Shown here: positions 2,293-47,029 of the stretch, one piece after another
Numbering within the stretch: position 1 is the first letter of the stretch
Layout of the letters: the number at the start of each line of letters is the position of its first letter
Assembly (NCBI GenBank): GCA_015956445.1
Contig: WIUZ02000013.1
Coordinates: 620,001 to 684,000 of the forward strand
Direction of reading: 5' to 3'
DNA from: Thelephora terrestris
Lineage: Eukaryota > Basidiomycota > Agaricomycetes > Thelephorales > Thelephoraceae
DNA length: 64,000 nt
Made by a program: the position numbers and the translations under genes
Notes under the pieces: model-generated
What the model was told of the DNA's origin: nothing
The model's database searches: none
The model's input: the letters and a program-made list of their open reading frames with translations, nothing else

Positions 2293-2739
2293 CCCATTTC
2301 CCGGCATTCTCTTTTTCACGCTCTTTCGAGGTTCCCTACCAATGGACCTATTGTACCCACACATTTTTCTGTGACCCATCGTCGACTCCGTCGCCCCACA
2401 CCTCCTCTGTGAATCCCGCCTCATCAAACCGCATGTCCTCCATTTTGTATCCGGTTTCTTTTCATCTGTCTTAGACCGTCTGTACTTTTTGTTATGTTTG
2501 AATTTTCAATCATATTATCGGCGGCAAAAGAGCTGGAGGGCATCGTGAATTCCTGGCAATTCCAGTCCCCCCCTCTTGTAATCGTGTATCTTTCCACCTC
2601 CGACTGCTCAATTCAGAGGCGTACGTAGCTATACGCCAACATGGATGTTACAACACAAATATATGATTTCACAATGTCCACGGTGGAATCAAGCAACTCA
2701 GCTCTCTTTCATTCATCATACCTTCACCCTCACCACAGC
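2293..2739. other. 3' flank of NLR copy 1, convergent with trehalase remnant
   Basis: No further coding signal. Part of this stretch (about 2300-2480) is alignable with the sequence after NLR copy 2 (about 8480-8640), so the duplicated unit includes 3' untranslated sequence. It lies between two tail-to-tail genes. Confidence 0.5.
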
Positions 2740-22995: not shown

Positions 22996-23329
22996 TGTTG
23001 AGCAGGTAGAGTATAATACTATACTACTACATGGGTACTCTAATCCTTACCTGAAGGGGAGAGGCTTATAGTTGCTAGTGGGGGAGAGAAAGAGAGAAGC
23101 AATTGATTGATCTATCTACACATGTGGGGTATATATATCTATCTACTCTATTGACGTCACAACTATACAGCGTGACTGATGCAAGGTCCGTGCAGCGGCT
23201 TTAAGGCACACGCGCGTCATACCAATCGATCGGATCACTGATGTGATACCGCTCCTTCGGGTCACTTATTGAGCGCTCTCTGGCATCGGCTCTCGCACAA
23301 AGCGGTGGAGTCAGTTGACCCGTTGCCGG
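22996..23329 (-). repeat. Copia left LTR, major part (3' LTR of the element)
   Basis: 334 bp matching 46675-47008. It breaks at CCGG, where the gypsy LTR begins. It contains a TATATATA stretch and a TGACGTCA palindrome (in ATTGACGTCACAAC). Confidence 0.9.
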
Positions 23330-24333
23330 TGACCCGCTGTCTATTCGCGCGACCTTCGAATCTAGTGCTAGTCCCCAGTCCCTACCTCCCTACCCCGCTA
23401 GTTACTGACTACGCGAGCCGACGACCCCTCGATCGGTCACAGGAGGGTCACGCCCACTTGACGCCCCGATCATCGAACCGTTCCCGCGATCCCTTCGACG
23501 CGCGTCATCGCACGCTGTTTCTGCCTCCGTGGCCGTCCTCCCCGAACGGCACGTGATGTTGCGATCGGCCGATGTCTCCCGATCCCTTATCTCGCCGAGA
23601 TGACGTGTCCCCTCCCTCGGTCCGGTTCCCTTCAGTCTATACACGTGTCGACTCGTTCCCTCTCGCTCGCCAATCATCTTCGACTGCTCCCGCTCTCCCG
23701 CCCGGTTACGATCTTTTGATCTCGAACCCGTAGACTTCCCCTTTCGGTCCTGTTTCTCACGATCGCTCCATCCTCTCGGTAAGACCTGTCCCAGCCTCGT
23801 TCCGGCCTCCCAATGAACCGTTTGTCTCCCTACCCTGCATCGGACTCTCGTTTATCCCCTTCTATCTACCTGTTCTTATTCTCCCACCGTTTCTCCATTT
23901 GTTCGCTACTTTTCCCATCTCTTTCGCGTAGATCGCACTGTCTTTACCTATAAATACCCTGTACTAGCTAGTTGAACGACCAAGAAACCCCTGGGCCTCT
24001 TCACACCTCTTCTCCCTTCTGCTTGAACGACCTGATCATCGAAAACCTCCAGCTCCTCGCTCTGACATCGATTCCACTAGCCCCATAGTTCCAATAGACC
24101 CCTAGCCTACTAGCCCATCGCCCACTAGCCCCTTAGCCCATCGTCATCGTCTAGCAGGAGTTTGCTAGTACGGAGTTCTCCCTTCTCGTCCCGACAACGT
24201 CGCGACCTACCGTGGTTCCCTCCCCTCTGCCTAGCTTCTCTCCCCTTCCCGACCTCTGCACAACCGGTGACCCCTCACCCCCACTCCTGCTATTCTGGTT
24301 GTGTCCCGACTCCACCCGGATAGTAACAGTTCA
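23330..24333 (+). repeat. Gypsy 5' LTR (1004 bp)
   Basis: Direct repeat of 40285-41288, TG..CA. A TATAAATA core lies near 23949 (CTATAAATACC), giving a transcription start near 23980. Confidence 0.95.
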
Positions 24334-24336
24334 TTT

Positions 24337-24355
24337 TGGAACCCACGCCGAGACC
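24337..24355 (+). other. Possible primer-binding site of the gypsy element
   Basis: Three T after the LTR, then TGGAACCCACGCCGAGACC, which starts TGG as expected for pairing to a tRNA 3' CCA end. I could not assign a tRNA. Confidence 0.35.
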
Positions 24356-24379
24356 GGTTCAGAGGTCACTTCTGGCTAG

Positions 24380-26304
24380 AAGCTATCAGCCATTCCACCC
24401 CGCGGACGAGGTCGTGCGCAGAAGGTTATCCCGCTAGATTTCTCCCCCCCTCAGACGCGATCTCGCGCTCGGCTCCTGGCTTTGCAAACCCCAGCCGAGA
24501 TTAACCAAGACGTTCGGGAAGCCCGACAGGCTATTCTCGACACTCGCCAAACTCTCTCTCTACTCGACAACGTTGTTTCCGCCATCGTAGCCCGGCAGAT
24601 CGCTTCCTCATCGAACAACCCTCTCCCGCATCCCGAACAAGACGAGACCTTCTTCCGTACCCCACTATCTTCACCCACCGACTTGCCAGGCACCGTTCCG
24701 CCGTCGCGATCGCCCACTCCCCCAGACTCCCCGTCGCGACTCGCGCAGGCCCTCCCGATAACGACACCAACTTTTCCCACCCGCCCACCCGTATCTTATC
24801 CAGCAATGACGGCCAACATGCCCCTGACGCACAGTCGCGAGGCTCCCCGGTTTGCCTCCGATACTGAGCAAGGCTTCAAGACCTTCTTTGACGAGCTCGA
24901 GGAGGTAGCCAAGCGCGCAGGTCTAGACGACGCACAGATGATTGACTGGGCTCAGCGTTACGCCGGTCGCGCAGCTGAATCCTGGGAGCACGTTCCCTGC
25001 TTGCACCCGGACGTCCTCGCTCACACTCCCGCCACTTGGGCTCAGTTCAAGATCGAAGTTAGACATCTGTACTCCCACCTCCAAGCGGATCGCCGCTGGA
25101 CCACTCGAGACCTGGATACCCTCCTGGAACGCACTCGCGGGTACCGGGACATGAGTCGCGAAGACCTCGGCGACTACCACCGGTCCTTCCTTACCTATTC
25201 CGCGTACCTCATTGCGAAGGGACGCTACACCGCTCGGGAGCGTGACGCCGCCTATCTCAGGGGATTCCCCCAGCCTATCCGCGCACGAATCCTGCATCGA
25301 CTGTCGATCAAGAAGCCTGACGTCCTTCCCGACGACGGTTACCAGTTCTCTGATGTCCACGAGGCTGCGTTGTTCGTCCTTAACGCACGCGCTCCCGACG
25401 ACAACCCCGACTCTCGAGCCGTCATCCCGAAGACGGAGCCCGCAGAGCAGGGGGGCGTCAGCGAGCTCATCCAGGCAATGTCAAACCTGACTCGGGTCTT
25501 CACCGCGAACGTACAGCCTCGCCGTGGGCCCCCTCCTTCTGCCCCTCCACCGCGCCTCCCTCGTCCCGCTACTTCCCAGACTACTCCGGGAGGAGTATTT
25601 CAAAACGTCCCCCGGTGGAACACCCTAAACCCAGAGCAGTACACCCAGAACTGCGTGTTCTGTAGCGCCCATGACCACTTCGTTCGCGACTGCCCCATTG
25701 CAGCGGACTACCTCGTACAAGGGAAAGTCATCAAGAACGGCTACGGGAAGCTATCCTTGCCCGATGGCCGCTACCCTCCACGCAACATCCCTGGCAAGAA
25801 CCTTCGCGAACGTATCGACAACTACTGGACATCAGAGGGCCTCGACGAAGGACAAGGTCGCGACGCCTTTGCAACCAACTTCTTAGAAGGCCCAGACGAG
25901 TGTGTGTTCACCATAGACATAGACCCCCCTGCCGAAGAGTATTACGCCCATCCCGACGAACAGTACGACCTCTTCGAGGAGGAATGCGATCCCGACCAAG
26001 AGGACTACCCGACTACCAGCATACCACACACTCCCGTCGAGAACCGCTACGCTCCTAACCCCCTCTCCAAGTACGACGACGAGACACTAGAACAAGTCGA
26101 ACTGATGCAAGCCCAGCTCGACTCCATTCGCAACGCCCAGATCTACGCCCTGCAGACTGGCCCCAAGAAAGTCAGGTTCGACGGTGTCGAGATCGCGAGA
26201 AGGACGGGCCCACCCCAAAGGGATGGACGATTACCACCTGCCCCTACGGGCCCTACCCCAGCCAGTCGCGAGTCGGGACCGTCCAAGCCCACTCCTGCGC
26301 CTAC
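24380..26304 (+). CDS. gag: Gypsy Gag
   Basis: Capsid/nucleocapsid polyprotein of the Ty3 element; it forms virus-like particles and binds element RNA. The frame is open from 24380 after an AG that could be a splice acceptor (CTGGCTAG), and no ATG occurs before 24806, so an upstream exon, perhaps from the LTR, is likely. The capsid-like region (FFDELEEVAKRAGLDD, YAGRAAESWEHV) occupies about residues 130-300 counted from 24482. A zinc knuckle CVFCSAHDHFVRDC (CX2CX4HX4C) lies near 25656, and acidic linkers follow. The palindromic insertion at 26305 interrupts the frame. Without it, Gag reads straight into protease with no stop. Confidence 0.85.
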
Positions 26305-27144
26305 CACTGGGGGCAAGGGGTCACTTACCCAGAGATTACATTGTGATTACATTGTGATTTTTTAGACAATGTGTTCAGCCTGTGGCCAGGAGGTATATGT
26401 TGAGTTCTTTTACAAAGTACCCATCAATGTGACCACAATGTGGCCAGTGGGTCCATCTTGATCACTTTTACAAAGTGCCCATCAATTCGATCACAATGTG
26501 CCCTGTGGATCCATGCAGGATACATTGTAAAAGTATCCATCAAAGTGGCCACTGGGCACTTTGTGAAAGAAACCCCTAGGTTCTTTCACAATCTTGCTTA
26601 CAAAGTGTCCAGCATACACCTGAGCCACTCATTGAGAGTTCTTTCATAAAGTATCCAGCAATGTGTCCACAAAGTATTCAACCAGATACTCAATGGTTTC
26701 TTTGAGAGTTTGTTGTGAAATCCAACCACATTGAGAGTTCATTGTGAAAACATCAAGAAGAACCTCCTGGGGACATTGTGGTCACATTGCTGGTTACTTT
26801 TTGAAAGAACTCTCAAGGAGTGGCTCAGGCACCCAGTAGGATACATTGTAAACAATATTGTGAAAGAAATCCCTGGTTTCTTTCACAAAGTGCCCAGTGG
26901 CCACTTTGATGGATACTTTTACAATGTATCCTGCATGGATCCACAGGGCACATTGTGATCGAATTGATGGGCACTTTGTAAAAGTGATCAAGATGGACCC
27001 ACTGGCCACATTGTGGTCACATTGATGGGTACTTTGTAAAAGAACTCAACATATACCTCCTGGCCACAGGCTGAACACATTGTCTAAAAAATCACAATGT
27101 AATCACAATGTAATCTCTGGGTAAGTGACCCCTTGCCCCCAGTG
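26305..27144. mobile_element. 840-bp palindromic CACTG element (MITE-like)
   Basis: Near-perfect inverted arms starting CACTGGGGGCAAGGGGTCAC and ending with its complement, flanked by TAC at 26302-26304 and 27145-27147. CACTG/CACTA ends with a 3-bp duplication fit the CACTA (CMC/EnSpm) superfamily, so it is probably a non-autonomous hairpin derivative. The arms contain repeated ACATTGTGA and ACAAAGTG words. No protein is credible. Confidence 0.8.
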
Positions 27145-28006
27145 TACCCAGACCCAGACGAACCCCGCCAACACCTCCGGAAAGCCTGGAGCTCGAGCGG
27201 GAGATCGCCAGACACAGCGCCCCCAAGGGCCGATGCGACCAGTCTCCTATCCACCTAGACCACCTCCAGACGACTCCAAGTATCGCTTCCAGGCCCCAGT
27301 CGAACACAACGTGAAGACAAGCGACATAGTCCATCGTGTGCTCGACTCCAAGGTCAACCTCAGCGCTCGCGAACTTCTGGCCGTCGCTCCCGACCTTCGA
27401 AAACACGTCAGGGAGATTGTCACCAGCAAGAAGATCTCGGCCAACACGGTAGAAGTCGATGAAGTGGATGCTTACCTAGCTGGATGTTTCGATGCAGAAC
27501 CCCCCTCAGTCTTCTTGGACCTCGTGAAGTACGACTCCTCATCCTCCGCAGCAGCCTCCTCCCTTCCCCTTCGCGTCATCCACCCGACGTTTGGGCCGGG
27601 TGTCGAACCCGAGTGCATTCTCGACGGAGGTGCTCAGGTCGTGGTGATGAGAAAGGATGTCTGGTCCCGATTGCAAGCACCTATCGTCGCGAGTCGCGCT
27701 ATGCCAATGGAGTCGGCGAATGCAAGCACCACCATGACGCTAGGCCTTATTGAAGACCACCCAGTTCAGCTCGGTCCCATCACTATCTATCTCCAGATCC
27801 AGGTCGTCGAAGAAGCGCCTTTCGAGGTTCTTTTAGGACGACCTTTCTTCGATGTCATCAGCTGCTCCGAAGTCAGCAGCGCAGGAGGGAAGCACGAGAT
27901 CCGCGTCAAAGATCCGAAAACGGGAAAGCTCTACGTGTTCGCGACGCAGCCCCGAATCCGCAAGTCTCCTCGACCAAATCCCGAGGAAGCGGTAAATTTT
28001 CATTAG
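27145..28006 (+). CDS. Gypsy protease (C-terminal part of Gag-Pro)
   Basis: Retropepsin-like aspartic protease that would mature the polyprotein. The frame continues that of Gag once the palindromic insertion is ignored (TQTQTNPANTSGK follows directly). The active-site region is ECILDGGAQVVVMRKDVW, with DGG where many retropepsins have DSG or DTG; related basidiomycete elements often show DGG. The second conserved block is FEVLLGRPFFDVI. The frame ends at TAG 28004-28006, just after a slippery heptamer that opens the RT frame. Confidence 0.85.
27994..28006 (+). promoter_or_regulatory. -1 ribosomal frameshift site A AAT TTT at the Pro/RT junction
   Basis: In the protease frame the codons read GTA AAT TTT CAT TAG. 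AAATTTT fits X XXY YYZ in the correct phase, 3 nt before the TAG. After a -1 slip the ribosome reads TCA TTA GCA and continues in the RT frame without a stop. A downstream structure was not tested. Confidence 0.7.
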
Positions 28007-29382: not shown

Positions 29383-29399
29383 GAGCCCATTCAGCTACT

Positions 29400-30560
29400 T
29401 TTTCCCCATGACCCATGGACCGTACGGCGTGACAAAATCCCATGACCCATGGGCCATACGTCGCCGTACGACAGGTACAAATCCCCATGACCCATGGACC
29501 GTACGATGGTGTGTGGGCCCCATGACCCATGGGTTGTACGGTGCTGTATGACAGTATGGCCTGTCCATGACCCATGGGTTGTACGATGCCGTACGGTGGT
29601 ATGCCCTTCCCATGACCCATGGGCCGTACGGTGGTGCTGGACAGCCATCCACCCTGCCCATGACCCATGGGTCGTACGGCACCGTACAGGGGTTTGCCCT
29701 ACCCATGACCCATGGAGCGTACGGCGCCGTACGGTGGTATGCCCTACCCATGACCCATGGAGTGTACGGCGCCGTACGGTGGTATGCCCTACCCATGACC
29801 CATGGGTCGTACAGCGCCGTACGACAGTATGCCCTGCCCATGACCCATGGAGCGTACGGCGCCGTACGGGGGTTTGCCCTACCCATGACCCATGGAGCGT
29901 ACGGCGCCGTACGGTGGTATGCCCTGCCCATGACCCATGGGTCGTACGGCGCCATACGGTGGTATGCCCTACCCATGACCCATGGGTCGTACGGCGCCGT
30001 ACGACAGTATGCCCTGCCCATGACCCATGGAGCGTACGGCGCCGTACGGTGGTATGCCCTGCCCATGACCCATGGGTCGTACGGCGCCGTACGGTGGTAT
30101 GCCCTGCCCATGACCCATGGGTCGTACAGCGCCGTACGGGGGTTTGCCCTACCCATGACCCATGGGTCGTACGGTGCCGTACGGGGGTTTGCCCTACCCA
30201 TGACCCATGGAGCGTACGGCGCCATACGGTGGTATGCCCTACCCATGACCCATGGGTCGTACGGCGCCGTACGACAGTATGCCCTGCCCATGACCCATGG
30301 AGCGTACGGCGCCGTACGGTGGTATGCCCTACCCATGACCCATGGGTCGTACGGCGCCGTACGGTGGTATGCCCTACCCATGACCCATGGACCGTACGGC
30401 GCTGTACAGTGGAATGCCTTGCCCATGACCCATGGGTTGTACGGTGCTGTATGGTGGTATGCCCTATCCATGACCCATGGAGCGTACGGCGCCGTACAGT
30501 GGAATGCCTTGCCCATGGCCCATGTATTGTACAGTGCCGTACGGTGGATTACCTTGAAAA
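29400..30560. repeat. 45-bp tandem repeat array, left arm
   Basis: About 26 units built on CCCATGACCCATGG, then a GTACGGCGCCGTAC palindrome, then a GGTATGCCCT-type segment. As 45 is a multiple of three and the unit lacks stops in several frames, long open frames appear on both strands (for example 15-residue repeats of the MTHGAYGAVRWYALP kind). These are artefacts of the repeat. Confidence 0.9.
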
Positions 30561-30800
30561 AAAAATTTAATGGATTACCTAATAAGGAACTATATGATGG
30601 ATTACCTAAAAAAGAAATATTTGATGAATTACCTAAAAAGGAAATATTTGATGCATTACCTAAAAAGAAAATATTTGATGCATTACCTAAAAGGAAATAT
30701 TTGATGAATTACATAAAAAGGAAATATTTGATGGATTACCTAAAAAGAAAAATTTGCTTGACTGCCTAAAAGAGAAATAGTTGATGGATTACCTAAAAAG
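30560..30800. repeat. AT-rich short tandem repeats, left arm
   Basis: About eight copies of GATGGATTACCTAAAAAGGA-like units of 24-30 bp. The mirror copy is at about 32110-32330. Confidence 0.8.
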
Positions 30801-30949
30801 GAAATATCTGATTGATTCTGGAAAATAGCAACATCCTAACCTAACCTCAAGGCACTGCCAGATCAGGAATCCATTCACCTCTTGCATTAGTTTTCTGTTT
30901 GTAGTCCTGACTAACCCAAAGTGGTTAAGCTAACATCATCCAATCTAAC

Positions 30950-31060
30950 CTCACCTAACCTAACCTAACCTAACCTAACCTAACCCTGACCTAACCCTAA
31001 CCCAACCCTCACCTAACCTAACCTAACCTAACCTAACCTAACCTGAAACAGCCAATCTAA
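30950..31060. repeat. (CCTAA)n interstitial telomere-like array, left arm
   Basis: Runs of CTAAC/CCTAA with occasional CCCTAA and CCCTGA variants. The mirror array (TTAGG)n is in the right arm. Confidence 0.85.
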
Positions 31061-31859
31061 CCCATTTCACCCTAACCTAACCTGCAGTGGTCTATCCAAC
31101 CTGACTATAGCTTTGCTTAAGCTGACCCATGACAAACAAGTCCTAACTTAAACTTGACCTTGCCTAGCACACCAACATGTAACATGGGTTACAGGAATGC
31201 AGTGCAAAGTGCATACCCCTTGTGGGACCTCCACTTGTATTTAGCCATAAGCTGGCTATCACTTGAACACACCTACTAACCTGGACCTACCAGTTGGTGG
31301 ACCTGCAAGCCAAAAGGTCCTTGGACTGGTATTCCATAAAAGATCCTGCCACTCAATTACCACCAACCACATTCACAAAACATCTCTTGCCCAGGCCAAA
31401 ACTCAGCAACAACTCAAATTTACCTACCTGAACAGACCCAGAATCCAGCTGGGTGTGTTCCTCCACATTACAGGCCCACAGACCTATAGACTTATGAATT
31501 AATGAGTCCAATGGGTCATAGGTTCAGCCAGGTGGATTGGCTTTATTTGTCATCAAGTTAATATCTGGTACAAGAGAGGTGAATATGGTTGGGTGGCAGG
31601 CACAGCTTATGGAATATAGTCCATGGACCTGTTGGCTTGCAGGTCTACCAACTGGTAGGTCCAGCTCAGTAGGTGTGTTCAAGTGATAGCCAGCTTATGG
31701 CTAAATACAGGTGGAGGTCCCCCAAGGGGTATGCACTTTGCACTGCATTCCTGTAACCCATGTTACATGTTGGTGTGCTAGGCAAGGTCAAGTTTAAGTT
31801 AGGACTTGTTTGCCATGGGTCAGCTTAGGCAAAGCTATAGTCAGGTTGGATAGACCACT

Positions 31860-31990
31860 GCAGGTTAGGTTAGGTTGAAATGGGTTAGATTGGCTATTTC
31901 AGGTGGGTTGGGTTAGGTTAGGTTAGGTTAGGTGAGGGTTAGGTTAGGGTTAGGTTAGGTTAGGTTAGGTTAGGTTAGGTTAGATTGGAT
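31860..31990. repeat. (TTAGG)n interstitial telomere-like array, right arm
   Basis: Mirror of 30950-31060, mostly TTAGG pentamers with some GGGTTAGG. The usual fungal telomere repeat is TTAGGG, so this is a pentamer variant. Confidence 0.85.
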
Positions 31991-32329
31991 GATGTTAGCT
32001 TAACCACTTTGGGTTAGTCAGGACTACAAACAGAAAACTAATGCAAGAGGTGAATGGATTCCTGATCTGGCAGTGCCTTGAGGTTAGGTTAGGATGTTGC
32101 TATTTTCCAGAATCAATCAGATATTTCCTTTTTAGGTAATCCATCAACTATTTCTCTTTTAGGCAGTCAAGCAAATTTTTCTTTTTAGGTAATCCATCAA
32201 ATATTTCTTTTTTGGGGAGATCCATCAAATCTTTCCTTTTTAGGTAATTCATCAAATATTTCCTTTTTAGGTAATCCATCATATAGTTCCTTATTAGGTA
32301 ATCCATTAAATATTCTTTTCGAGGTAATC

Positions 32330-33380
32330 CACCGTATGGCACTGTACAACCCATGGGTCATAGGCAAGGCATTCCACTGTACAGCGCCGTATGGTCCATG
32401 GGTCATGGGCAGGGCATACTGTCGTACGGTGCCATACGCTCCATGGGTCATGGGTAGGGCAAACCACCGTACGGCGCCGTACGACCCATGGGTCATGGGT
32501 AGGGCATACCACCGTACGGCGCCGTACACTCCATGGGTCATGGGCAGGGCATACCACCGTACGGCGCCGTACGCTCCATGGGTCATGGGCAGGGCATACC
32601 ACCGTACGGCGCCGTACGCTCCATGGGTCATGGGCAGGGCATACTGTCGTACGGCGCCGTACGCTCCATGGGTCATGGGTAGGGCAAACCCCCGTACGGC
32701 GCCGTACGCTCCATGGGTCATGGGTAGGGCAAACCCCCGTACGGCGCCGTACGACCCATGGGTCATGGGCAGGGCATACCACCGTACGGCGCCGTACGAC
32801 CCATGGGTCATGGGCAGGGCATACTGTCGTACGGCGCCGTACGCTCCATGGGTCATGGGTAGGGCATACCGCCGTACGGCGCCGTACGCTCCATGGGTCA
32901 TGGGTAGGGCATACCACCGTACGGCGCCGTACGCTCCATGGGTCATGGGCAGGGCATACTGTCGTACGGCGCCGTACACTCCATGGGTCATGGGCAGGGC
33001 ATACTGTCGTACGGCGCCGTACGCTCCATGGGTCATGGGTAGGGCAAACCCCCGTACGGCGCCGTACGACCCATGGGTCATGGGCAGGGCATACCACCGT
33101 ACGGCGCCGTACGCTCCATGGGTCATGGGCAGGGTGGATGGCTGTCCAGCACCACCGTACGGCCCATGGGTCATGGGAAGGGCATACCACCGTACGGCAT
33201 CGTACAACCCATGGGTCATGGACAGGCCATACTGTCGTACAGCACCGTACAACCCATGGGTCATGGGGCCCACACACCATCGTACGGTCCATGGGTCATG
33301 GGGATTTGTACCTGTCGTACGGCGACGTATGGCCCATGGGTCATGGGATTTTGTCACGCCGTATGGCCCATGACCCATGG
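32330..33380. repeat. 45-bp tandem repeat array, right arm
   Basis: About 22-24 units, the inverse complement of the left array. Unit order differs from the left arm, so the arms have changed by unequal exchange or slippage since the palindrome formed. Long open frames here on both strands are again repeat artefacts. Confidence 0.9.
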
Positions 33381-33410
33381 GGAAAAAGTAGCTGAAACCT
33401 GTGGCTCGAC

Positions 33411-36140
33411 CTATACGTTTCCTTCGACCAGCGTCAGCTTCATCCCGACTCTCGCGACATGACCACGTTCAACACTCCCCTCGGCGCGTTCCGACTCACA
33501 GTTCTACCGATGGGTTGGACGAACTCCCCAGCCGTGTTACAGGGCGACGTATCCCACATCCTTCGACCCGAGATTCCACACTGGACCCAGCCTTTCGCCG
33601 ACGACGTCCCCATCAAAGGCCCAAAGTCGCGATACGAGCTTCCCGACGGAACGTATGAGACTATCCCCGAAAACCCAGGCATACGACGATTCGTCTGGGA
33701 GCACTTCCAAGCAGTCCACCGGATCATCCAGCGCGTCAAGTCCTACGGGGCTACGTTTAGCGGGAAGAAGGCCTTCATCGGAGTACCTCAGGCCGACATC
33801 CTTGGACACATCTGTACTTACGAAGGTCGTATCGCGGATCCTTCGCGAATCCAGGCCATCCAGGACTGGCCAGTCCCGACAAATGTTTCAGAGGTTCGAG
33901 CTTTTCTGGGAACCTGTGGAGTCCTTCGAATCTTCATCAAGAACTACACTCTCGTCGCGAGGCCCCTCATCCAGCTAACACGGAAAGACGAACCCTTCGA
34001 AATTGGACCCCCGCAGTTGGCAGCTATCGAGAACCTCAAGGCCGCGATCGTAAACTCACCAGCTCTACGCCCTATCAACTACGAGTCGCAACGCCCAGTC
34101 ATCCTAGCCGTCGACTCCTGCATGAACGGTGTTGGTTTCATTCTCCTTCAGGTCGGTGAAGACGGAAAGCGCTACCCCAGTCGATTCGGGTCCATCACGT
34201 TCAACGATCGCGAGTCGCGATACTCCCAGGCCAAGCTCGAGCTCTTCGGGCTGTTTCGCGCACTCAAGCAGACGCAGATTTACACCATCGGCGTGAAGAA
34301 ACTCACTGTGGAAATGGATGCCAAGTTTATCAAGGGGATGCTCAATAACCCTACACTCCATCCCAACGATGCCGTGAACCGATGGATATCCGCCATCCTG
34401 CTCTTTGACTTCGAACTCGTCCACGTCCCCGCTGACAAGCACACCGGAGCTGACGGTCTCTCCCGTCGTCCTCGCGCCCCTGAGGATCCGCCTCCCGACG
34501 ATCCGGACGAACTAGAAGAGTGGATAGACCTCGGCGCAGGATTCTTCCTTGAAGTCAACACACCTCGATCCCCCCTAGACCCAGCACCTTCTATATTATT
34601 CGCCATCGAACCCGAACCAGCTCTGCATGCCTCCTCTCCTTCCCCTCGACCCTCTCCAGAACCTCCCGACGACTCTGCCGCTCCGTCGCGATCCTCCTCA
34701 CCGGATTCTGAGACTGATGTCGCGATCCCCCAGTCCCCCAAAGGCCTCCGTCGTGAAGAACGGCTGGTCGTGATACAGAAGTTCCTGTCCGACTTGGAGC
34801 GCCCTCCAGACCTCTCTGACCACGACTACCAGCAGTTCATCCGCCAAGCCACAGACTACTTCCTCGTTGGCAACAAGCTGTTCCGGAAGAATCGCAAGGG
34901 TAGCCCACAGCTCGTTCCTCCTCCTTCAGATCGCCTCCGCCTCATTCGGTTTGCCCACGACAACCTCGGCCACAAGGGAGCCTTCGCGACGACAGCCAAC
35001 CTCCTTCTGCGTTTCTGGTGGCCCTGCCTCAGTGAGAACGTCCGATGGTACGTCAAGACATGCCACGAGTGTCAACTGCGCCAAACTGAATATTTCTACA
35101 TCCCGCCAACCGTCCCGACCGTTCCCGGCTTGTTTTGGAAAGCCCATATCGATACCTTTCTTATGCCCAGGACTGGAAGCTACCGATACGTCATCCACGC
35201 TCGCGATGCGCTTACATCTTATCCCGAAGCTCGGGCAACTACCTCCGAGTCTGCCAAGGTCATCGCCGACTTCATCTTCCAGGACCTCCTGTGTCGTTGG
35301 GGTGGCATCGCCGAGATTGTCACCGACAACGGTTCCTCCTATATCGCAGCCCTCGACATCCTCGCATCGCGATACGGTATACGACACATCCGCATCTCTG
35401 GCTACAACTCCCGAGCCAATGGGATTGTCGAGTCGAAGCACTTTGATGTCCGTGAAGCTGTCATGAAAACCTGTCATGGAAACGAGTCCAAGTGGCGCGA
35501 GGTTCTCCCGCAGGTCTTCTGGGCCGAGCGTGTCACTGTGCGGAAGGCGACTGGGTTCTCCCCTTACTACATGGTCCACGGTGTCCACCCCATCCTCCCC
35601 TTTGACATTCTCGAAGCCACTTACCTCGTCCCTGCCCAAGACTTTGGCATCTCTACCGAGGAACTCATCGCGATCCGGGCTCGTCAGCTGGCGAAGCGTG
35701 AGGAAGATATCGAAAAGATGCAGGAGACAGTTACCGCTTCCCGCATCAAGAACCTAGAACGGTTTGAGAAGCGCCATGGTTCACAGATTGTAGACTTCGA
35801 CTTCAAGCCCGGATCTCTGGTCCTCGTTCGGAATTCCCGCATCGAAGAGTCCCTGAACCGCAAGACCAAGCCCCGGTACAATGGCCCCTATGTCGTCATT
35901 CGCAAGAAGGCTGGCCCCTCTTACATCGTCGCTGAACTCGACGGCGCCCAGTCTCAGCTCAGGGTAGCCGGGTTTCGTCTGATTCCCTACCTTGCTCGTA
36001 CAGAGACTCGCGACCCAAGCTTCGCGACTCTTCCCGACGACGAGGACTCCACCAGCGAGGACCCTGAAGATGTCCACTTCTTCGATTCCTTGGACCCCGC
36101 TGTTGGATCTTATCGCGAGGTTCCCTCCCCTTCGTTCTAG
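33411..36140 (+). CDS. pol: Gypsy Pol, second part: RT core, RNase H, integrase
   Basis: Continues RT after the foldback element. RT has LPMGWTNSPAVLQGDV and a catalytic FADD (usual YxDD or FIDD). RNase H has LAVDSCMNGVGFILLQ, an E in QAKLELFGL and VHVPADKHTGADGLSRR. Integrase has a zinc-binding HDNLGHKGAF..CHECQ, then D in KAHIDTFL, D in IVTDNGSSY and E in NGIVESKHFD, giving the DDE triad. The C-terminal domain has the GPY motif (YNGPYVVIRK); no chromodomain was seen. The frame is intact to TAG at 36138. Apart from the foldback insertion, this pol looks functional. Confidence 0.93.
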   Translation, partial: LYVSFDQRQLHPDSRDMTTFNTPLGAFRLTVLPMGWTNSPAVLQGDVSHILRPEIPHWTQPFADDVPIKGPKSRYELPDGTYETIPENPGIRRFVWEHFQAVHRIIQRVKSYGATFSGKKAFIGVPQADILGHICTYEGRIADPSRIQAIQDWPVPTNVSEVRAFLGTCGVLRIFIKNYTLVARPLIQLTRKDEPFEIGPPQLAAIENLKAAIVNSPALRPINYESQRPVILAVDSCMNGVGFILLQVGEDGKRYPSRFGSITFNDRESRYSQAKLELFGLFRALKQTQIYTIGVKKLTVEMDAKFIKGMLNNPTLHPNDAVNRWISAILLFDFELVHVPADKHTGADGLSRRPRAPEDPPPDDPDELEEWIDLGAGFFLEVNTPRSPLDPAPSILFAIEPEPALHASSPSPRPSPEPPDDSAAPSRSSSPDSETDVAIPQSPKGLRREERLVVIQKFLSDLERPPDLSDHDYQQFIRQATDYFLVGNKLFRKNRKGSPQLVPPPSDRLRLIRFAHDNLGHKGAFATTANLLLRFWWPCLSENVRWYVKTCHECQLRQTEYFYIPPTVPTVPGLFWKAHIDTFLMPRTGSYRYVIHARDALTSYPEARATTSESAKVIADFIFQDLLCRWGGIAEIVTDNGSSYIAALDILASRYGIRHIRISGYNSRANGIVESKHFDVREAVMKTCHGNESKWREVLPQVFWAERVTVRKATGFSPYYMVHGVHPILPFDILEATYLVPAQDFGISTEELIAIRARQLAKREEDIEKMQETVTASRIKNLERFEKRHGSQIVDFDFKPGSLVLVRNSRIEESLNRKTKPRYNGPYVVIRKKAGPSYIVAELDGAQSQLRVAGFRLIPYLARTETRDPSFATLPDDEDSTSEDPEDVHFFDSLDPAVGSYREVPSPSF

Positions 36141-36358
36141 GACAGACCAACCTGTCTCGTATTTATTCCGGACTATAGCTATGCACCTCTCTATTCACTT
36201 TTTCCGCCCCCTTCTAAGATTCTAATGCTGTCTCACTTTCGATCTACCTTCTAGACACCCACGTTTCCTTCGCCCGCTATTCTTCTTTCATCATCTTTAC
36301 AACCCCTTTGTCTTTGCAGTTGCGCATCAATGACCAGCTAGTTCACTCTTACCTTGGG

Positions 36359-37669
36359 CTATGCCCCGTCGCCTCTGCGGTCGCGACCCTCTCCAAACTC
36401 AGCCCGAATGCGTCGCGAGGTCTCCCCAACCACGCTCATCATGGCGTCCTCCGTGGGGTCAAGGTCATCTTCATATCCCGCATATCTGCCCGTGGATCTC
36501 GCGAACATCTCACGAGCACGGAGCATGTAGGCGACAGCGTGCTGCAGCATGCGTACACGAGCGGCCACGTCTGATTCCGCAGGAGAGAGTCGCCCGTAGT
36601 TGCGGTGGCGTGTATAGGAAGGCGGTGGACCCTCTTGCGGGATGGTGTTAGCCCCGACGACCGTCGCACCTGGCGTTGGTACCTACGATTCCCCAGGTCA
36701 ACCAGTGGACGTCGCGACAAAGATGATGAACTCACATGGTCAACACCCCCCGTGGTATCAGCGGTTTCGGCGCGCTCGAGCGGCACCGGAGCCTCCTCGC
36801 GATCCTCCCCGTGCGCAAGAACAATATCCAAGTCCTCGTCCGTCGCCTGAGCGTGGAACTCCGTAACCACAGGCGGATCTTCCACCCCACCAACGGCTAC
36901 CGGCTCCTCCGCGGTAGCGGTGACTTCCTCGCGACGGACCCCAACTTCCCCATAGTACTCCCGACGCATGAGAGACGCCTCGACGAAGTCCGCGAGCGAT
37001 TGCTCCAGCCACGCGATCCTGCCGTTCAGACCCCTGACCTGTGCTCCAGTCAGCGTCACGACCCTGCGCGGGACAGCGGGGACTCACATAGTGACTCCCG
37101 GCCTCGCTCTCTGCGGTGTAGTGCCGATCCATTTCGTCCATAGCCTGGTCCATCATTCCCACGCGGATCCTCAACCATTCATTGCGAAGACGGACTTCCT
37201 CAATCTACCATTCAAGAGTTAGCACTATGCTCGGACGCGACCACTCCCAGCGACATACCCTATTTTCGAGTCCCTCCTGACGCCTCATGAGCTCGTTCGC
37301 GATTACAGCGGTATAACGAACGGCTTGTCGTGTCGCGATGCTTTCACGAACGTCTCCCGACATCCCATCAGCAGCGAGACCCATCTCTAGGAGGCGCCTC
37401 CAAACCCTGTCCTCCCCCAGACGCCCTGGGCGACCTCGATCGTCCTCAATAGCCCTGATAGCGAATCCGAAGAGGGCATCTGAGCTCGTGGCCCTTTCCA
37501 AGGCATCGCGATCCCCACGCTCGCTCCGAACGCGTTCCACGATATCTGCAAGAGTGATGTCGAGAAAGCCGACCCCTGGACGATCAGTGGGGGGATCGCG
37601 AGCTTCAAGGTTGTTTATCCACACAGGATTGTCGCCGTCGGTGAGATAGTGATTCCCGATGAGAGGCAT
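36359..37669 (-). CDS. Antisense coiled-coil protein gene inside the gypsy element
   Basis: Four exons on the minus strand, 37669-37259, 37204-37088, 37038-36736 and 36682-36359. Every intron (49-54 nt) is phase 0 with GTATGT or GTGAGT donors, and the product is 384 residues. ATG 37669 starts MPLIGNHYLTDGDNPVW. Heptad-like segments run across exons 1-3 (ELMRRQEGLENR, LRNEWLRIRVGMMDQAMDEM, LNGRIAWLEQSLADFVEASL), followed by an acidic linker and a basic helical tail (MLQHAVAYMLRAREMFA). The frame is undamaged. It lies head-to-tail with the cysteine-cluster gene and opposite to pol. I recognise no known family. The coiled coil suggests oligomerisation, perhaps with Gag or the neighbouring protein; that is speculation. 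Confidence 0.8.
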
Positions 37670-38192
37670 TGCGGTCGTGCTGGTGGTGGTGGACTTCAAA
37701 ATTTTTTTTTTCACTCGATCCCCCTCCCTGACGTTTTCCCCTGTCCTCGCGGACCGTACGGTGTCCCACGTGATTCGGAAGATGCCGGCACCGTCCCGAT
37801 CATCCCGTCCGGCCCGTGTTATCGTGCCTCTGAGCCGGGTGGGCTCCCAATTCAATGCTGGCCAACCGTCCCGCCGTTTCCAGGCGTTTCAGCATTTCAC
37901 CCCGTCGTTGTTGTGACCGAGGACGGTCAGTATTCAAAAGTCTCGAGGAGAGCCAGTCCCCAATATCGCGCTCGCATCCCGATCATCGTTCATACCCGCT
38001 GGAAGGACACAGAGGAGGTACCCACCTTGCAGAACTCGTCTCACGCCTTACCCAACTCGATTCCACGAGCCTCACCACACTCCACACGCTACGGACCAAG
38101 AAAACACGAGAATTCAGCAAAGAAACAGGCCAAGAAACTAGTAGTACATGATGATGATGGCTAAAAAGTTCGCGCGACCTCCTCCCCATTCC
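37670..38192. other. Spacer between the two antisense cargo genes
   Basis: Holds the putative promoter of the coiled-coil gene and, at 37937-37952, a second copy of the 16-mer AAAAGTCTCGAGGAGA found next to the 3' LTR. A short T-run near 37700 may belong to the leader. No gene seen. Confidence 0.5.
37937..37952 (+). promoter_or_regulatory. Internal copy of the polypurine-tract 16-mer
   Basis: AAAAGTCTCGAGGAGA, identical to 40269-40284. It could be a second plus-strand primer site, the scar of a duplication, or, on the other strand, a shared promoter motif of the two antisense genes. Confidence 0.5.
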
Positions 38193-40132
38193 TCAGACCC
38201 TTCGCGACCCCTCCGCAACCATACCCGAGTCCTCAACGTCGTCAACATCCCGAAGCTCCTCTCCCACATCCCTCACCGCAGCCCCACCATCCGAAAACAC
38301 CTCGTCGTCACTCACAGCCCCCACAGACACATCACCGTCGCCCCCTTCCTCTCCCGAACACGCAAAGTCAGAGGAGTCCCAGATCTCCTCCCCACCACGG
38401 CGATTGATCTCCTCGTTCATCCTAGCCAGGATCCTCTTCGCAATGTACCGACGACTCGCGACGAGATCAGCAATCTCGTCCACCTCGTTGCGCTCCTTGG
38501 CAAGCTGGGAACGAAGAGCCGCGCGAAGTTGCTCCACAGCAACCGGGGAATCCGTCGACGGGCCCCACTCCTGCTCGAACTCACGGAGATCGACCTCCCA
38601 GCTGTGAAGTCCTGAAGAGGGACCCCCGACAGACAGACCAGCCATCGCGACTGTGGGAAGCGCAACGTTCGAACTTGCTGTGGCAGCCTTAGTCTTGGAG
38701 CGGGTAGAAACGGAGGGGGAGGGCTCAGAAGCCGCAGAGGTCGCAGCCTTCCTCACGCGAGGGGCTCTCTTCGGTTTCGGGACTTTCCCACCGTCGTCGG
38801 CAAGCTCGTTCGTAGGAACCTCCGTCTTGCGACGGTCCGCGGCCTCCTTCCTGCGACGACGATCTCCCGCGGGCGTGCGAGTAACCGTGGGCCAACCAGT
38901 GATCCCGAAAGTCATCCATTTGAAGGAGCAACCCTTCTTGTCCTTCCTACAGGCTGCGCAGATGAAGGTCGGACGCTCCTCCTTGAGCGCGAGGCACCAG
39001 GTTGGACGACACGCATCCTTCACCACCTTCGACGAGGACGAGTCGCACCGATCACACGTCTGGAAGAAGTATGAGACCTCCCGGATACAGCGCGAAAGGT
39101 TTAAAAGACTCACGTATTTGCGCGCACCCGGAAACTTCACCGTATTCAGCTGCTCCCCCTCCTCATATGTCTCGCCGGAGAGGTCGATGGCTGGAAAGGC
39201 CGGGACGTGATCACGTTGAACGCCCTTCCCCTTCCCGGTGGTACCCGTCGTCCGCGAACGTTTTGAGGTGGACTCCTCCTTACTCGGCGAGCTGGAGAGA
39301 TCCCGCTTCAACCCGACGTTCGACTCTGTGGCCGAAACATCCCTTCTGGTAGCCTGGGGACGAGGAGGGACGGCAACGTATGGGATGAGCGCACTTTTAC
39401 CCCCCGTCGTGTTCCGACCACCCCCAGCGCTCCTTCTGGGCGTATCCTCCATCTCAAAGTCCTCGTCTCGCTCGGACACCTGTGGAGTTGGCTGAATGGA
39501 GGGCTCGCGACTGGTGGGAGGCGGCAGATCGCCCACCGTGCCCCTGACCGCCTGGATAGACGGCTGACGACTCATAGCTGGCGTAGTAGCCCCCCCAGCA
39601 CTCCCGACCGGTCGAAGCGTCGATTGACGACTAATCACGGGTGCGGGAGCCTCCTCTGCATCCTCGCCAAAAGGGGTCGAGCCCGGAGTTAACCAACCAA
39701 TGGACTCTGCCGCGTCTGCCCAGTCGACGATCAATTGCAGAGGCGGGAGCCCAAAACTACGGCACACGTCCCGATGACGAGCCTACAAACTCGACGATTT
39801 AGTCCCTCCCTCCCGCCACATCGAAACGTCGCGACTCGACTCACCAGCCAAGCCAACGCATGCATCGCCCAAGGGTCCCGCAACTCCTTATCCCCCTCCA
39901 GCCTTTCCTCCAACCCCTTGAGCCGCCAAAACGGCAGGACCGTCGCCCAGACGGGCTCGAACGCTTCCGGACGTCCCTGAGCCGACACCAAGGCCTTGAT
40001 CGTGGGGCGAGCCCAATCGGGATGCTTCTCGTCGTCCGGGATCTTCACCGCCTTGGCGCTCTGTATCATAGCGGCCAGGATAATCGGGTCGCTGGCAGCA
40101 GCAGGAGGAGTCCATTTAGAAGAGGAAGACAT
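38193..40132 (-). CDS. Antisense cysteine-cluster protein gene inside the gypsy element
   Basis: Three exons on the minus strand, 40132-39845, 39782-39114 and 39059-38193, with phase-0 introns of 62 and 54 nt. The product is 607 residues. The second intron is a multiple of three without a stop, so it can also be read through. N-terminal about 120 residues: WTPPAAASDPIILAAMIQSA and HALAWLARHRDVCRSFGLPP. The middle is disordered, with SRQ/SRE-PSIQ repeats. Near residue 320-370 lies a cysteine cluster: CDRC, then DAC, TWC, CAAC and KGC, typical of the six- to seven-cysteine clusters often seen in agaricomycete proteins of unknown role. Basic stretches (KRSR, RRRRK) follow, then an acidic C-terminus. 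A nuclear DNA- or RNA-binding role is plausible but unproven. The frame is intact. Confidence 0.8.
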
Positions 40133-40268
40133 GATGAGGACCAGAAAAGAGAAGTGATGAGCTGGCGAAACCGCGATCTCGTCGTTTTGCTTCCGCGCGG
40201 CCTTCCCGATTCGGACGCCTCACGTGTGCCTCATGGCGACCTCACGCAACCAAGGGTGGTTGAATTTT

Positions 40269-40284
40269 AAAAGTCTCGAGGAGA
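40269..40284 (+). other. Polypurine tract of the gypsy element
   Basis: AAAAGTCTCGAGGAGA directly abuts the 3' LTR (TGACCC at 40285). Its purine-rich end GAGGAGA is the expected plus-strand primer. Confidence 0.65.
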
Positions 40285-41288
40285 TGACCCGCTGTCTATT
40301 CGCGCGACCTTCGAATCTAGTGCTAGTCCCCAGTCCCTACCTCCCTACCCCGCTAGTTACTGACTACGCGAGCCGACGACCCCTCGATCGGTCACAGGAG
40401 GGTCACGCCCACTTGACGCCCCGATCATCGAACCGTTCCCGCGATCCCTTCGACGCGCGTCATCGCACGCTGTTTCTGCCTCCGTGGCCGTCCTCCCCGA
40501 ACGGCACGTGATGTTGCGATCGGCCGATGTCTCCCGATCCCTTATCTCGCCGAGATGACGTGTCCCCTCCCTCGGTCCGGTTCCCTTCAGTCTATACACG
40601 TGTCGACTCGTTCCCTCTCGCTCGCCAATCATCTTCGACTGCTCCCGCTCTCCCGCCCGGTTACGATCTTTTGATCTCGAACCCGTAGACTTCCCCTTTC
40701 GGTCCTGTTTCTCACGATCGCTCCATCCTCTCGGTAAGACCTGTCCCAGCCTCGTTCCGGCCTCCCAATGAACCGTTTGTCTCCCTACCCTGCATCGGAC
40801 TCTCGTTTATCCCCTTCTATCTACCTGTTCTTATTCTCCCACCGTTTCTCCATTTGTTCGCTACTTTTCCCATCTCTTTCGCGTAGATCGCACTGTCTTT
40901 ACCTATAAATACCCTGTACTAGCTAGTTGAACGACCAAGAAACCCCTGGGCCTCTTCACACCTCTTCTCCCTTCTGCTTGAACGACCTGATCATCGAAAA
41001 CCTCCAGCTCCTCGCTCTGACATCGATTCCACTAGCCCCATAGTTCCAATAGACCCCTAGCCTACTAGCCCATCGCCCACTAGCCCCTTAGCCCATCGTC
41101 ATCGTCTAGCAGGAGTTTGCTAGTACGGAGTTCTCCCTTCTCGTCCCGACAACGTCGCGACCTACCGTGGTTCCCTCCCCTCTGCCTAGCTTCTCTCCCC
41201 TTCCCGACCTCTGCACAACCGGTGACCCCTCACCCCCACTCCTGCTATTCTGGTCGTGTCCCGACTCCACCCGGATAGTAGCAGTTCA
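40285..41288 (+). repeat. Gypsy 3' LTR (1004 bp)
   Basis: Same length as the 5' LTR. Differences noticed by eye are only near the right end (for example GGTCGTG versus GGTTGTG, and TAGTAGCAG versus TAGTAACAG). Confidence 0.95.
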
Positions 41289-43445: not shown

Positions 43446-45764
43446 TCATGGTGCAGGCTCATCAGCATGTTCCTTGCCCTTCGAGGAGGGCTTGGGGGTA
43501 GGTTTGGGACGCGCAGAGGGTGCTGCGTCATTTTCCTCTTGTTCTCCTGGAAGGGGACACTGGCAGTCACCGTCTTTGTGACAGTGATGACTGGGTAAGG
43601 GTGGCGCAGTGGATTGCAGCCGAGTGTTACGCCGTATACTGGCAGTCGGGCACTTAGGAAAGTGCAACTCATCGAAGGTGGCCTGAGCAGCAGAGAAGAT
43701 AATATTGTTAGGTCCACGCATAAAAATCCACCCTTTCCCTCCTGGGTGGGTACCCAGGTAGGTCATCAGTTCTGATCGAGGTGCGAGCTTGTTTACCCGT
43801 ACTTCCTCCGGGATGAAGACATAAGCTCCGCAACCGAGGACCCGAAGATGATCAATTGAAGGCTTACTCCCATTTAGTAGTTGGAATGGAGTCTGCCAAT
43901 TTAGGTGACGGTTCGGCGTTTGATTGTAAACGTGAGTTGTGTGATCAAGGGCGAATTCCCACCAAGACTGAGGGAGGCAAGCCTGTAGTCTCATGGATTC
44001 TCCCTTATCCATCAACATGCGAATGATCCTCTCTGCGCGACCGTTTTGTTGGTGTGCATGTGGGATAGATTGGAGGATCTCAATCCCTTTTTCCTTGAGC
44101 ATTGTTGTAAATGTTAGGGACGTGTATTCCCCTCCAGCATCAGACATCCATTGTTGTACTCTTTTTTGGTATTTGGTTTCAACCATTGCCAGGAAGTGCC
44201 TGGCAGCCACGAGCATGCCATCTTTAGTGCGCAAATTCATGGTCCAGGCATGGGAGGTATAGTCGTCATAGAAGACAATTGAGTACTTGTACTTGCGATA
44301 GGATTCGATGGGAAAGGTTTTCAGATCCGAATGGATCAGCTCGAAGGGGGCAGTTGCTCTGGTGCTGGATGGGGGAAAGGCTTTATTTGTCATCTTCCCT
44401 TGTGCGCATCCAGTGCAGAGGTGCTCTCTTGGGATTTCGACATGAGGAAAATCCTTGACATGTTTCCCGGCCTTTTGAATCACCTCTTTGGAAGGGTGAG
44501 CCAGTCGGCGGTGCATGATTTCGAAATCAGCACTGTAGATGGTTTCAATTTTAGTGGCAGTAAGTTGCGCTCCGAGGAGGGTTCTGATGATGTAGATACT
44601 ATCATCCTCGGTCCAAGGGTGGAAGGTGAGAAACTCAGTTTCTTCTTCGTAAAGTGTGATTTCACGAGCACTCCCCCTTGAGAAGAGTCCGCTTTTAAGG
44701 AACTGGCCAAGAGATAATAGCCTATGGGATATATCTGGGACAAAATAGACAGGGTTCAGTCTGACGGCTTTCTTGTTTATGTAGAGGATTACTATTTCTT
44801 TACCGATGATTGTTGTGAAATTGGTTGCGGTCCTTAGAGGAATGGGTTCAATGGCCTCATATTCAACAAAATCATTCATATCAAAGGTAAAGTGCCGGGA
44901 TGCTCCGGAATCGAGCATCCACACAGCTTCAGTTTCACTCAGGGTGGACAAGGTAAGACAAATATATTTTGAAGCAACTACTGAAGAACTACATATGTCT
45001 TCAGGTGCTGTGGAGTCATTAGTTTCGTTACTCAACACTTGATTTGTTTCATACCTTCCACCAAAGCCAGATGGGCCGGCAACCGACGCGGGGGATGCAA
45101 CAACCATCTCATCACTTGACCATCCTAGGCTCACCTCATCCTCGCCCGGCGGGGTACGCGCCTTTTTGCGGGGGCGAGGATCGACCATCTGCTCGCAGGA
45201 GTGCTCCAGTCGCTTAAGGGTCTTGATTGTGGGCTTTACGCCTATCCGTGCTGAGAGATCTCTTGCCTTCTGGATGGAGGGGTAGAAGGATGGAGTCCCT
45301 GCACCTTCACGATGGACCGGGAGGGAACGTAGAGGAAAGGCTGCCATGGAGGCGAAGCCGTAGTCAGTAGCTGACATGCCGGAGCTGGACGGGACCGGAG
45401 GTTGAGGGGAGAAGGGAGGCATGGGAGAGGGTATGGGGGACTCCTCAGTCTGTTGTGCCTGTTGTTGGAATCTTCCTTGGCCACCTCTGGTTCCTCGACG
45501 GTTACGTCCACAGCCTCCTTGGCCCTGGGGCTGGTCTCCGTGGGGCTGTTGCTGCTGCTGCTGGAAATTGGGGTTTCCAGGGGCGCACTGTACGTTGGAC
45601 AGCCTGTGGGCCTGCTGTCTGCCCTTACCGTTGGACGTTTGTTCCCATGCGAGGATGATGGTCCGTCGTAGACCTTCCACATCGAGTTTACTCATGTCCT
45701 CCGTCTGGCATACTGCCTGAGGGATGTTGTTGTAGGACGGGGGTAGTTTCGACATGAGCACCAT
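43446..45764 (-). pseudogene. Copia Gag C-terminus, protease and integrase
   Basis: 772-codon open stretch. Gag C-terminal, glutamine/glycine-rich RNA-binding-like part (CGRNRRGTRGGQGRFQQQ). Protease MLDSGASRHFTFD. Integrase zinc finger (HRRLAHPSKE..CTGCAQGK) and catalytic D in HSDLKTF, D in SDAGGEYTS and E in NGRAERIIRM. It ends in a TGA at 43446-43448, after which the same frame continues, so the stop is a nonsense mutation. It begins after another in-frame TGA that separates it from the Gag start. Confidence 0.88.
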
Positions 45765-45812
45765 CGTTTTGATGAAGGGGGGGACAATGATGTCCTTCCC
45801 ACCGCTCTCGAG

Positions 45813-46674: not shown

Positions 46675-47029
46675 TGTTGAGCAGGTAGAGTATAATACTT
46701 TACTACTACATGGGTACTCTAATCCTTACCTGAAGGGGAGAGGCTTATAGTTGCTAGTGGGGGAGAGAAAGAGAGAAGCAATTGATTGATCTATCTATAC
46801 ATGTGGGGTATATATATCTATCTACTCTATTGACGTCACAACTATACAGCGTGACTGATGCAAGGTCTGTGCGGCGGCTTTAAGGCATGCGCGCATCATA
46901 CCGATTGATCGGATCACTGATGTGATACCACTCCTTTGGGTCGCTTATTGAGCGCTCTCCGGCATCGGCTCTCACACAAAGCGGTGGAGTCGGTTGACCC
47001 GTTGCCAGGCACAAACCTCCGGTTCAACA
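46675..47029 (-). repeat. Copia right LTR (5' LTR of the element), 355 bp
   Basis: TGTTGA..TTCAACA. The uninterrupted copy used here to define the gypsy insertion point. Confidence 0.92.

Follow-up and report, generated by a model that had tools for sequence, protein, structure and literature searches.

The window analysed here is a stretch of 64,000 nucleotides (nt) from the genome of the root-symbiont fungus Thelephora terrestris (C5:620001-684000). Within it, a Ty3/gypsy long terminal repeat (LTR) retrotransposon was found to carry two intron-bearing genes, termed gene A and gene B, on the strand antisense to gag and pol. Both genes are standing parts of this retrotransposon family (F1) and not a one-off capture. 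Taken together, the results are read with moderate confidence as resident antisense accessory genes, of which gene B would be an element-encoded nuclear regulator. Copies and relatives were searched for in a genome of 40.6 Mb (60 contigs).

Antisense genes A and B in the element family

Both gene models were recovered exactly as in the original prediction, which had placed two spliced minus-strand genes between pol and the 3' LTR (Table 1). The two genes are intact, spliced and antisense in the window copy, their frames are undamaged, and the predicted five canonical introns were confirmed on sequence: all run from GT to AG, lie in phase 0 and measure 49-62 nt (54, 49 and 53 nt in gene A; 62 and 54 nt in gene B). 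Intron 2 of gene B contains no stop in the window copy (54 nt). It was taken as probably real since it shows gaps of 1-2 nt in copies L011, L015 and L020, differs in length in the related families F2 (49 nt) and F4 (58 nt), and is spliced out, together with intron 1, in the NCBI models P0002-P0004. Among the five NCBI models from the same species, intron 1 is spliced as here in four and intron 2 in three, with P0005 differing at both.

F1 loci were counted by using the integrase as marker (40 of 46 candidates scored). Thirteen were found, on C1, C2, C4 (two), C5, C7, C13, C14, C16 (two), C23, C25 and C59, and probes for gene A and gene B both matched at 13 of 13. Other copies of the element therefore hold sequence of the same two genes, as had been anticipated. 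The C23 locus and one C16 locus consist of pieces spread over up to ~22 kb, each counted as a single locus, and only remnants are left at the C59 locus following a deletion.

The window genes were compared with ten other copies. Gene A is free of gaps, insertions and stops in seven of these; the damage elsewhere consists of one inserted letter each in L014 and L019 and a deletion in L020. Gene B is clean on the window's model in L010 and L011, whereas one stop was found in L015 and two in L020. The gene has no gaps or stops in L013, yet is broken by inserted DNA; inserted DNA also interrupts it in L014, which has one inserted letter in addition. For L016-L019 the comparison on the window's model covers only 303-305 of 607 codons, and gene B is clean there on its own model.

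Ratios of non-synonymous to synonymous rates (dN/dS, omega) between copies, a check proposed along with the original prediction, were low wherever the comparison was informative. Omega for gene A was 0.19-0.24 against the F1b copies (dS ~0.14) and 0.17 against L015, and for gene B it was 0.20-0.27 at dS 0.43-0.67, with the F1b comparisons covering about half of the codons. The near-identical copies L010, L011, L013 and L014 gave values of 0.2-1.3, with too few changes to tell. Differences from L015 at codon positions 1/2/3 numbered 6/7/26 in gene A and 63/57/152 in gene B, a count that omits inserted letters and unaligned places (as does the comparison of identity along the gene B block, below). 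Both antisense frames are thus judged to be under purifying selection (omega 0.17-0.27).

The element is a Ty3/gypsy LTR retrotransposon on the basis of its LTR ends, a short target duplication and the order of Pfam matches (protease, reverse transcriptase (RT), RNase H, integrase). The RT match in the window copy scored 25.4 bits, below the cut-off of 29.6, and the RT is split by an insert. The LTRs of this copy differ at 2 of 1004 positions, as expected of the young element that had been proposed, with CCGG on both sides. As for the target duplication in other copies, ACGG stands at both sides of the C14 copy, and the flanks of the C1 copy do not match.

The window copy itself is not intact: gag and pol are interrupted by two inverted-repeat inserts, which the original prediction had overlooked. 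The smaller was scored as an insert because the gag frame of the C1 copy continues uncut (927 amino acids, aa); the larger, of ~4 kb, is not at the corresponding place in the C1 copy. This copy (L009) spans 13,088 bases between its outer LTR ends and holds long gag (927 aa) and pol (1452 aa) frames. Its gag (1268-4048) and pol (3799-8154) overlap in different frames, and a frameshift would be required. The larger insert of the window copy contains arrays of a TACGGCGCCGTACG-rich 45-nt unit along with runs of CCTAA repeats.

Table 1 Features of the retrotransposon in the window (PPT, polypurine tract)
Feature	Position	Strand	Remarks
5' LTR	23330..24333	+	1004 bp, ends TGA..TCA, CCGG directly before
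gag-like frame	24380..26365	+	zinc-knuckle hints only (E 0.1 and 0.18); truncated by inverted-repeat insert
Inverted-repeat insert in gag region	26305..27144	.	306-nt arms, 97% complementary
Aspartic protease frame, retroviral-type	27125..28006	+	Pfam
~4 kb inverted-repeat element within RT-coding region	29383..33404	.	45-nt tandem units, CTCGAC at each end
pol 3' part: RT end, RNase H, integrase (H2C2, rve)	33396..36140	+	Pfam
Gene A	36359..37669	-	exons 37669-37259, 37204-37088, 37038-36736, 36682-36359; 384 aa; no known family
Dyad adjoining PPT2	37915..37928	+	ACCG-N4-CGGT type
PPT2, second tract core, between genes A and B	37938..37950	+	pattern match, flank comparison
Gene B	38193..40132	-	exons 40132-39845, 39782-39114, 39059-38193; 607 aa; six-cysteine domain
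Six-cysteine domain of gene B, start of exon 3	38895..39059	-	cysteine alignment, domain model
Dyad adjoining PPT1	40247..40262	+	ACCA-N4-TGGT type
PPT1, terminal tract	40269..40284	+	abuts 3' LTR
3' LTR	40285..41288	+	1004 bp, CCGG directly after

Outside the gypsy element, direct repeats of 332 nt (95% identical, 22996-23327 and 46675-47006) flank a copia-type pol at 43446-45812 on the minus strand (SH3, rve, gag_pre-integrs), an arrangement which suggests that the gypsy element is nested at the edge of this copia element. Three related frames on the plus strand (53-2212, 6262-8346 and 52195-54321) match STAND/AAA-type and TPR domains, with further shared repeats nearby.

Gene B in related families and its flanking tracts

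Three families related to F1 were compared from one or two copies each: F2 (L024, L025), F3 (L026, L027) and F4 (L028). The pol proteins of F1-F4 are 67-76% identical among themselves. Gene B lies antisense at the corresponding place in F1b, F2 and F4, with both intron positions identical. The F2 protein is 35% identical to those of F1a and F1b, 27% to that of F4 and 39% to a paralogue outside the element, and F1 and F4 share ~26% in the matched piece. That intron positions are the same although the gene B proteins of these families share no more than ~26-35% identity is consistent with many rounds of retrotransposition without intron loss, in agreement with the proposal that the introns are inherited through the sense RNA. 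They would be kept as a result of the antisense orientation, since the genomic RNA holds only their complement, which cannot be spliced there.

Gene A is confined to F1 copies and F1-like fragments. The F2, F3 and F4 copies read have no space for it, the inner polypurine tract standing ~260-360 nt after the pol frame. By descent, gene B reads as ancestral and lost in F3. Related copies without the genes, a finding named beforehand as evidence against mobile genes, were seen as a related family (F3) and not as a clean capture within F1.

The core AAGTC(T/C)C(G/A)AGGAG occurs right before the 3' LTR (PPT1) and again between pol or gene A and gene B (PPT2), and gene B sits between both copies of the tract in the F1, F2 and F4 copies read. 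Genome-wide, this 13-base pattern gave 113 matches against 5 for a reversed control; 11 F1 pairs, 2.25-3.7 kb apart, are among the first 100 of the 113 matches listed. Any one copy read has the same core at both places, and the core varies between F1, F2/F4 and F3. At PPT2, identity of the core among F1, F2 and F4 is 92-100%, compared with 54-63% for the flanks between families (random 150-mers: mean 58%, maximum 62%) and 67-69% for the flanks within F1. A second, internal copy of the tract, conserved against its flanks as in a central polypurine tract, is therefore present.

All four families have a dyad, ACCG-N4-CGGT or ACCA-N4-TGGT, ~10 nt upstream of PPT1; upstream of PPT2 it is present in F1 and F2 and missing from F3 and F4. 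The combined pattern of dyad and core matched 77 times and the control never, and the inner pair was matched in 76 cases. The paired changes would represent only a few events, as most of the 77 matches are copies by descent. The dyad can be read either as a DNA site or as a hairpin. Everted CCG-N4-CGG repeats are known from Leu3 sites.

Identity of copies L015-L019 to the window was 93-100% over the pol stretch, 87-99% over gene A and 51-82% over most of the gene B block. Identity of L015 is back at 98-100% from ~39750 into the LTR, save for one gapped LTR stretch. A difference in rate alone is unlikely to account for the block, given dS of 0.10-0.19 in gene A versus 0.43-0.67 in gene B. The simplest reading would be an exchange of the gene B block with a diverged relative.

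The word TCGCGA was counted 49 times in the element, where 10 would be expected (Markov model from trinucleotides), and 10 times in 46 kb of flanks. Counts were compared with 2000 synonymous-codon shuffles per frame. The observed and shuffled counts were 15 and 1.6 in pol, 9 and 1.55 in gag, and 9 and 1.56 in gene A (0 of 2000 shuffles reaching the observed count in each), and 4 and 1.07 in gene B (28 of 2000). The word was not outstanding in five other frames of the window, where 270 to 2000 of the 2000 shuffles reached the counts. By family, enrichment is strong in F3 although gene B is absent, milder in F2, and in F4, which has gene B, missing from gag and mild in pol (6 against 1.9). Gene B was rejected as a reader of TCGCGA on account of this distribution, with strong enrichment where the gene is lacking and weak or no enrichment in F4. 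The related word TCCCGA lies mainly on the sense strand, both in pol and in the region of the antisense genes, part of the pol count being expected from codon shuffles; such a bias would suit an RNA signal better than a DNA site read in both directions.

Two further observations were made on these words. TCGCGA in pol is spread equally over the three codon phases, and TCGCGA and TCCCGA (mostly sense strand) are strongly over-represented through 23330-29389 and 33396-41288, that is, in gag, pol and gene A.

Gene-B-like genes were also found outside the element. At least four, on both strands, lie in a cluster on C1 (L029, C1:2634800-2644700), and three have the cysteine domain as well as both introns. 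The polypurine-tract core is absent from the cluster, no recognised retroelement surrounds it, and the adjoining frames presumably encode F-box proteins. A stretch of 1963 bases from this cluster recurs on C23 (100%), C16 (100% over 1704 bases) and C8 (97%). The cluster could be either a host gene family or the spread gene of an old element. The main forks of the gene B tree are unresolved, F4 is on a very long branch, and the cluster is not placed as source. For the genome search with gene B, 72 of 104 candidates were scored; distant members are missed by this search, as the gene of F4 is not among the matches listed.

Proposed role of gene B and competing explanations

Profile searches had been suggested for both proteins; these were run against Pfam at E up to 1, and neither gene A nor gene B matched any family. 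The gene A protein also had no match in the PDB. Its earlier description as a coiled-coil protein found no support in a simple heptad count, which gave a best value of 7/8, not above shuffled sequence (7 or more in 102 of 300 shuffles). For gene B, protein searches at the thresholds used returned no homologues beyond T. terrestris; the first two were crowded by low-complexity words, with only 7999 candidates scored, and the third used words from one 86-residue stretch (65 candidates), so that distant relatives could be missed.

Zn2Cys6 (Gal4-type) domains follow the pattern C-x2-C-x6-C-...-C-x2-C-x6-C. Six cysteines are invariant in eight of eight aligned rows of gene B proteins, three of which are paralogues outside the element. 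The second half fits C-x2-C-x6-C in all eight rows. The domain of F4, which reads C-x2-C-x6-C, a 15-residue loop and C-x2-C-x6-C, comes closest to the spacing of AlcR and other Gal4-type proteins; the first triad is longer in the other seven rows (x9 or x11 in place of x6). The best solved match of the profile was the Zn2Cys6 domain of AlcR (E 0.021), followed by AIR2 (E 0.041). AlphaFold2 confidence (pLDDT) was 72.8 for the cysteine domain and 48.3 for the whole protein, which also carries basic stretches that could act as nuclear signals. "Zn2Cys6-like" is accordingly used here for a lead and not for established membership.

Under the favoured reading, a promoter driving gene B would lie within the 152 bp that separate the start of the gene from the 3' LTR. 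The gene B protein would be nuclear and would bind element DNA through the six-cysteine domain, most probably close to the dyads that adjoin the polypurine tracts and the LTR, and this binding would set the element's own expression. Gene A, found only in F1, would be a partner. The gene B block may have been swapped between copies by template switching of co-packaged RNAs, as the simplest route.

Several results weigh against this reading. Transcription, splicing, localisation and DNA binding of gene B are all inferred. The NCBI model of the window copy itself, P0001, leaves intron 2 unspliced (625 aa = 607 + 18). On the side of the domain, only one of seven rows matched Pfam Zn_clus (PF00172), at 13.2 bits against a cut-off of 21, one row fits DUF2387, a probable metal-binding family, better (E 0.0017), and fold searches with the whole gene B model and with the cysteine domain model gave nothing significant; neither the Pfam cut-off nor a fold match thus places gene B among the AlcR/Gal4-type proteins. 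F3 is numerous and has no gene B, so that the gene is not needed in cis. The two tract copies stand 56 nt apart in both F3 copies read, and the 100 of 113 core matches listed include 18 F3-core tandem pairs, 54 or 56 nt apart, at least nine of which lie no more than 4 kb from an integrase match in the 72-74% group. In addition, paralogues of gene B exist outside the element, and its sharing among families could partly come from exchange instead of descent.

The same doubled tract invites an explanation in terms of replication, in which the gene B product would bind nucleic acids as an accessory protein and act together with the tract, perhaps when the plus strand is made or to shield the complementary DNA of the 13-kb element. 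Both the position of gene B between the tract copies in F1, F2 and F4 and the cores that match within each copy while differing between F1, F2/F4 and F3 are consistent with such a role. It is nevertheless regarded as unlikely: the doubled tract is retained in F3 without gene B and hence does not need the protein, and an antisense promoter would be an odd means of making a particle protein. A sequence-specific regulator resembling VANC of VANDAL transposons, which would recognise the dyads and/or TC(G/C)CGA, carry its specificity in the swapped block and serve F3 in trans, appears improbable. Somewhat better placed, though still rather unlikely, is an effect of the antisense transcript itself (double-stranded RNA with the sense RNA, small RNAs, copy-number control) with the proteins secondary. 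Transcription of both strands would inevitably yield complementary transcripts, a point raised for plants in PMC7264820, and within the stretch compared divergence is greatest in the gene B block; omega of 0.17-0.27, differences with a period of three and kept splice sites, however, indicate selection on the protein.

The original prediction had regarded the two genes as moving cargo. Taken as captured host genes, this was not supported, since the genes are standing in F1 (13 of 13) and gene B is common to three families; the paralogue cluster on C1, of unclear origin, was the sole candidate seen for a host source gene. Host genes carried as passengers are quite improbable. The cluster, which lies outside recognised elements and beside host-like genes and has close copies on C23, C16 and C8, could be taken for such a source, but the tree does not place it there and the four close copies could equally descend from an element. 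Capture as cargo was held unlikely on the identical introns and shared place of gene B in F1, F2 and F4 and on its purifying selection. Chance antisense frames opposite a sense-coding or structural region, for which a GC-rich element with long frames on both strands offers an opening, were rejected on the selection in the antisense frames and the period-3 differences; with homologues at ~30% identity that have matching introns, and both splices in three of five NCBI models, their probability is negligible.

Comparison with known antisense genes

An antisense gene of Boty-like Ty3/gypsy elements in Botrytis cinerea, brtn, is said to have been described by Zhao et al. in 2011. Boty is likewise a fungal gypsy element with an extra antisense gene between pol and the 3' LTR; it comes from an ascomycete and has one gene, compared with genes A and B by description only. 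Antisense brtn in Boty-like elements is mentioned in PMC7264820 and cited in PMC8365987, and antisense genes between pol and the 3' LTR have been described in plants (PMC7264820). The statement that neither protein is a known retroelement component has to be set beside the fact that a class of antisense genes in this position had already been described (PMC7264820, PMC8365987). Genes A and B share features of the aORF-3R class of LTR retrotransposons, being conserved frames between pol and the 3' LTR, antisense to gag-pol, in 13 of 13 loci.

The plant elements Retand, Grande and RIRE2 have TRP28 proteins and GENE23; the antisense genes are present in most copies, and DNA binding has been proposed for them (PMC7264820, PMC11963269). 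GENE23 is reported to be nuclear and made from its own promoter (PMC7264820, PMC11963269). A long region between pol and the 3' LTR and antisense genes in most copies are common to these elements and the one analysed here, which differs in its proteins, in the number of genes (two, with five introns) and in the doubled polypurine tract that encloses gene B. The main text of the Retand paper nowhere uses the word intron (PMC11963269). Genes A and B gave no Pfam match at E up to 1, where pfam04195 (PMC7264820) would show; GENE23 and brtn were compared by description.

Two likenesses lie further afield. HBZ and APH-2 are leucine-zipper proteins of a deltaretrovirus. They are nuclear products of antisense genes of human T-cell leukaemia viruses (PMC11963269), an antisense gene in a retroelement as here, although the likeness is by description only. 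VANC proteins of Arabidopsis VANDAL DNA transposons are anti-silencing proteins with a short motif enriched in the element, chiefly in non-coding parts and often as tandem repeats (PMC5735166, PMC10398659). Enriched motifs were found here as well (TCGCGA, TCCCGA), but these hexamers are scattered through coding regions and do not track gene B, as F3 has them.

No antisense genes of this kind in basidiomycete LTR elements, and no retrotransposons of T. terrestris, were recognised in the open-licence literature by titles and abstract starts. With the present results, a basidiomycete joins plants and one ascomycete element as a source of antisense accessory genes, here two genes with five introns, and the gene B protein family was found only in T. 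terrestris (protein searches, gene B only). Genes with introns are seen to have survived copying by way of RNA while three element families diverged, as the antisense orientation permits. What such genes do for retrotransposons is called an open question in PMC7264820 and PMC11963269; the doubled tract and its dyads, the exchanged gene B block and F3 as a family naturally lacking gene B offer a ready comparison for their role. New relative to the known systems are the position of gene B between two polypurine-tract copies and the exchange of the gene B block between otherwise similar copies.

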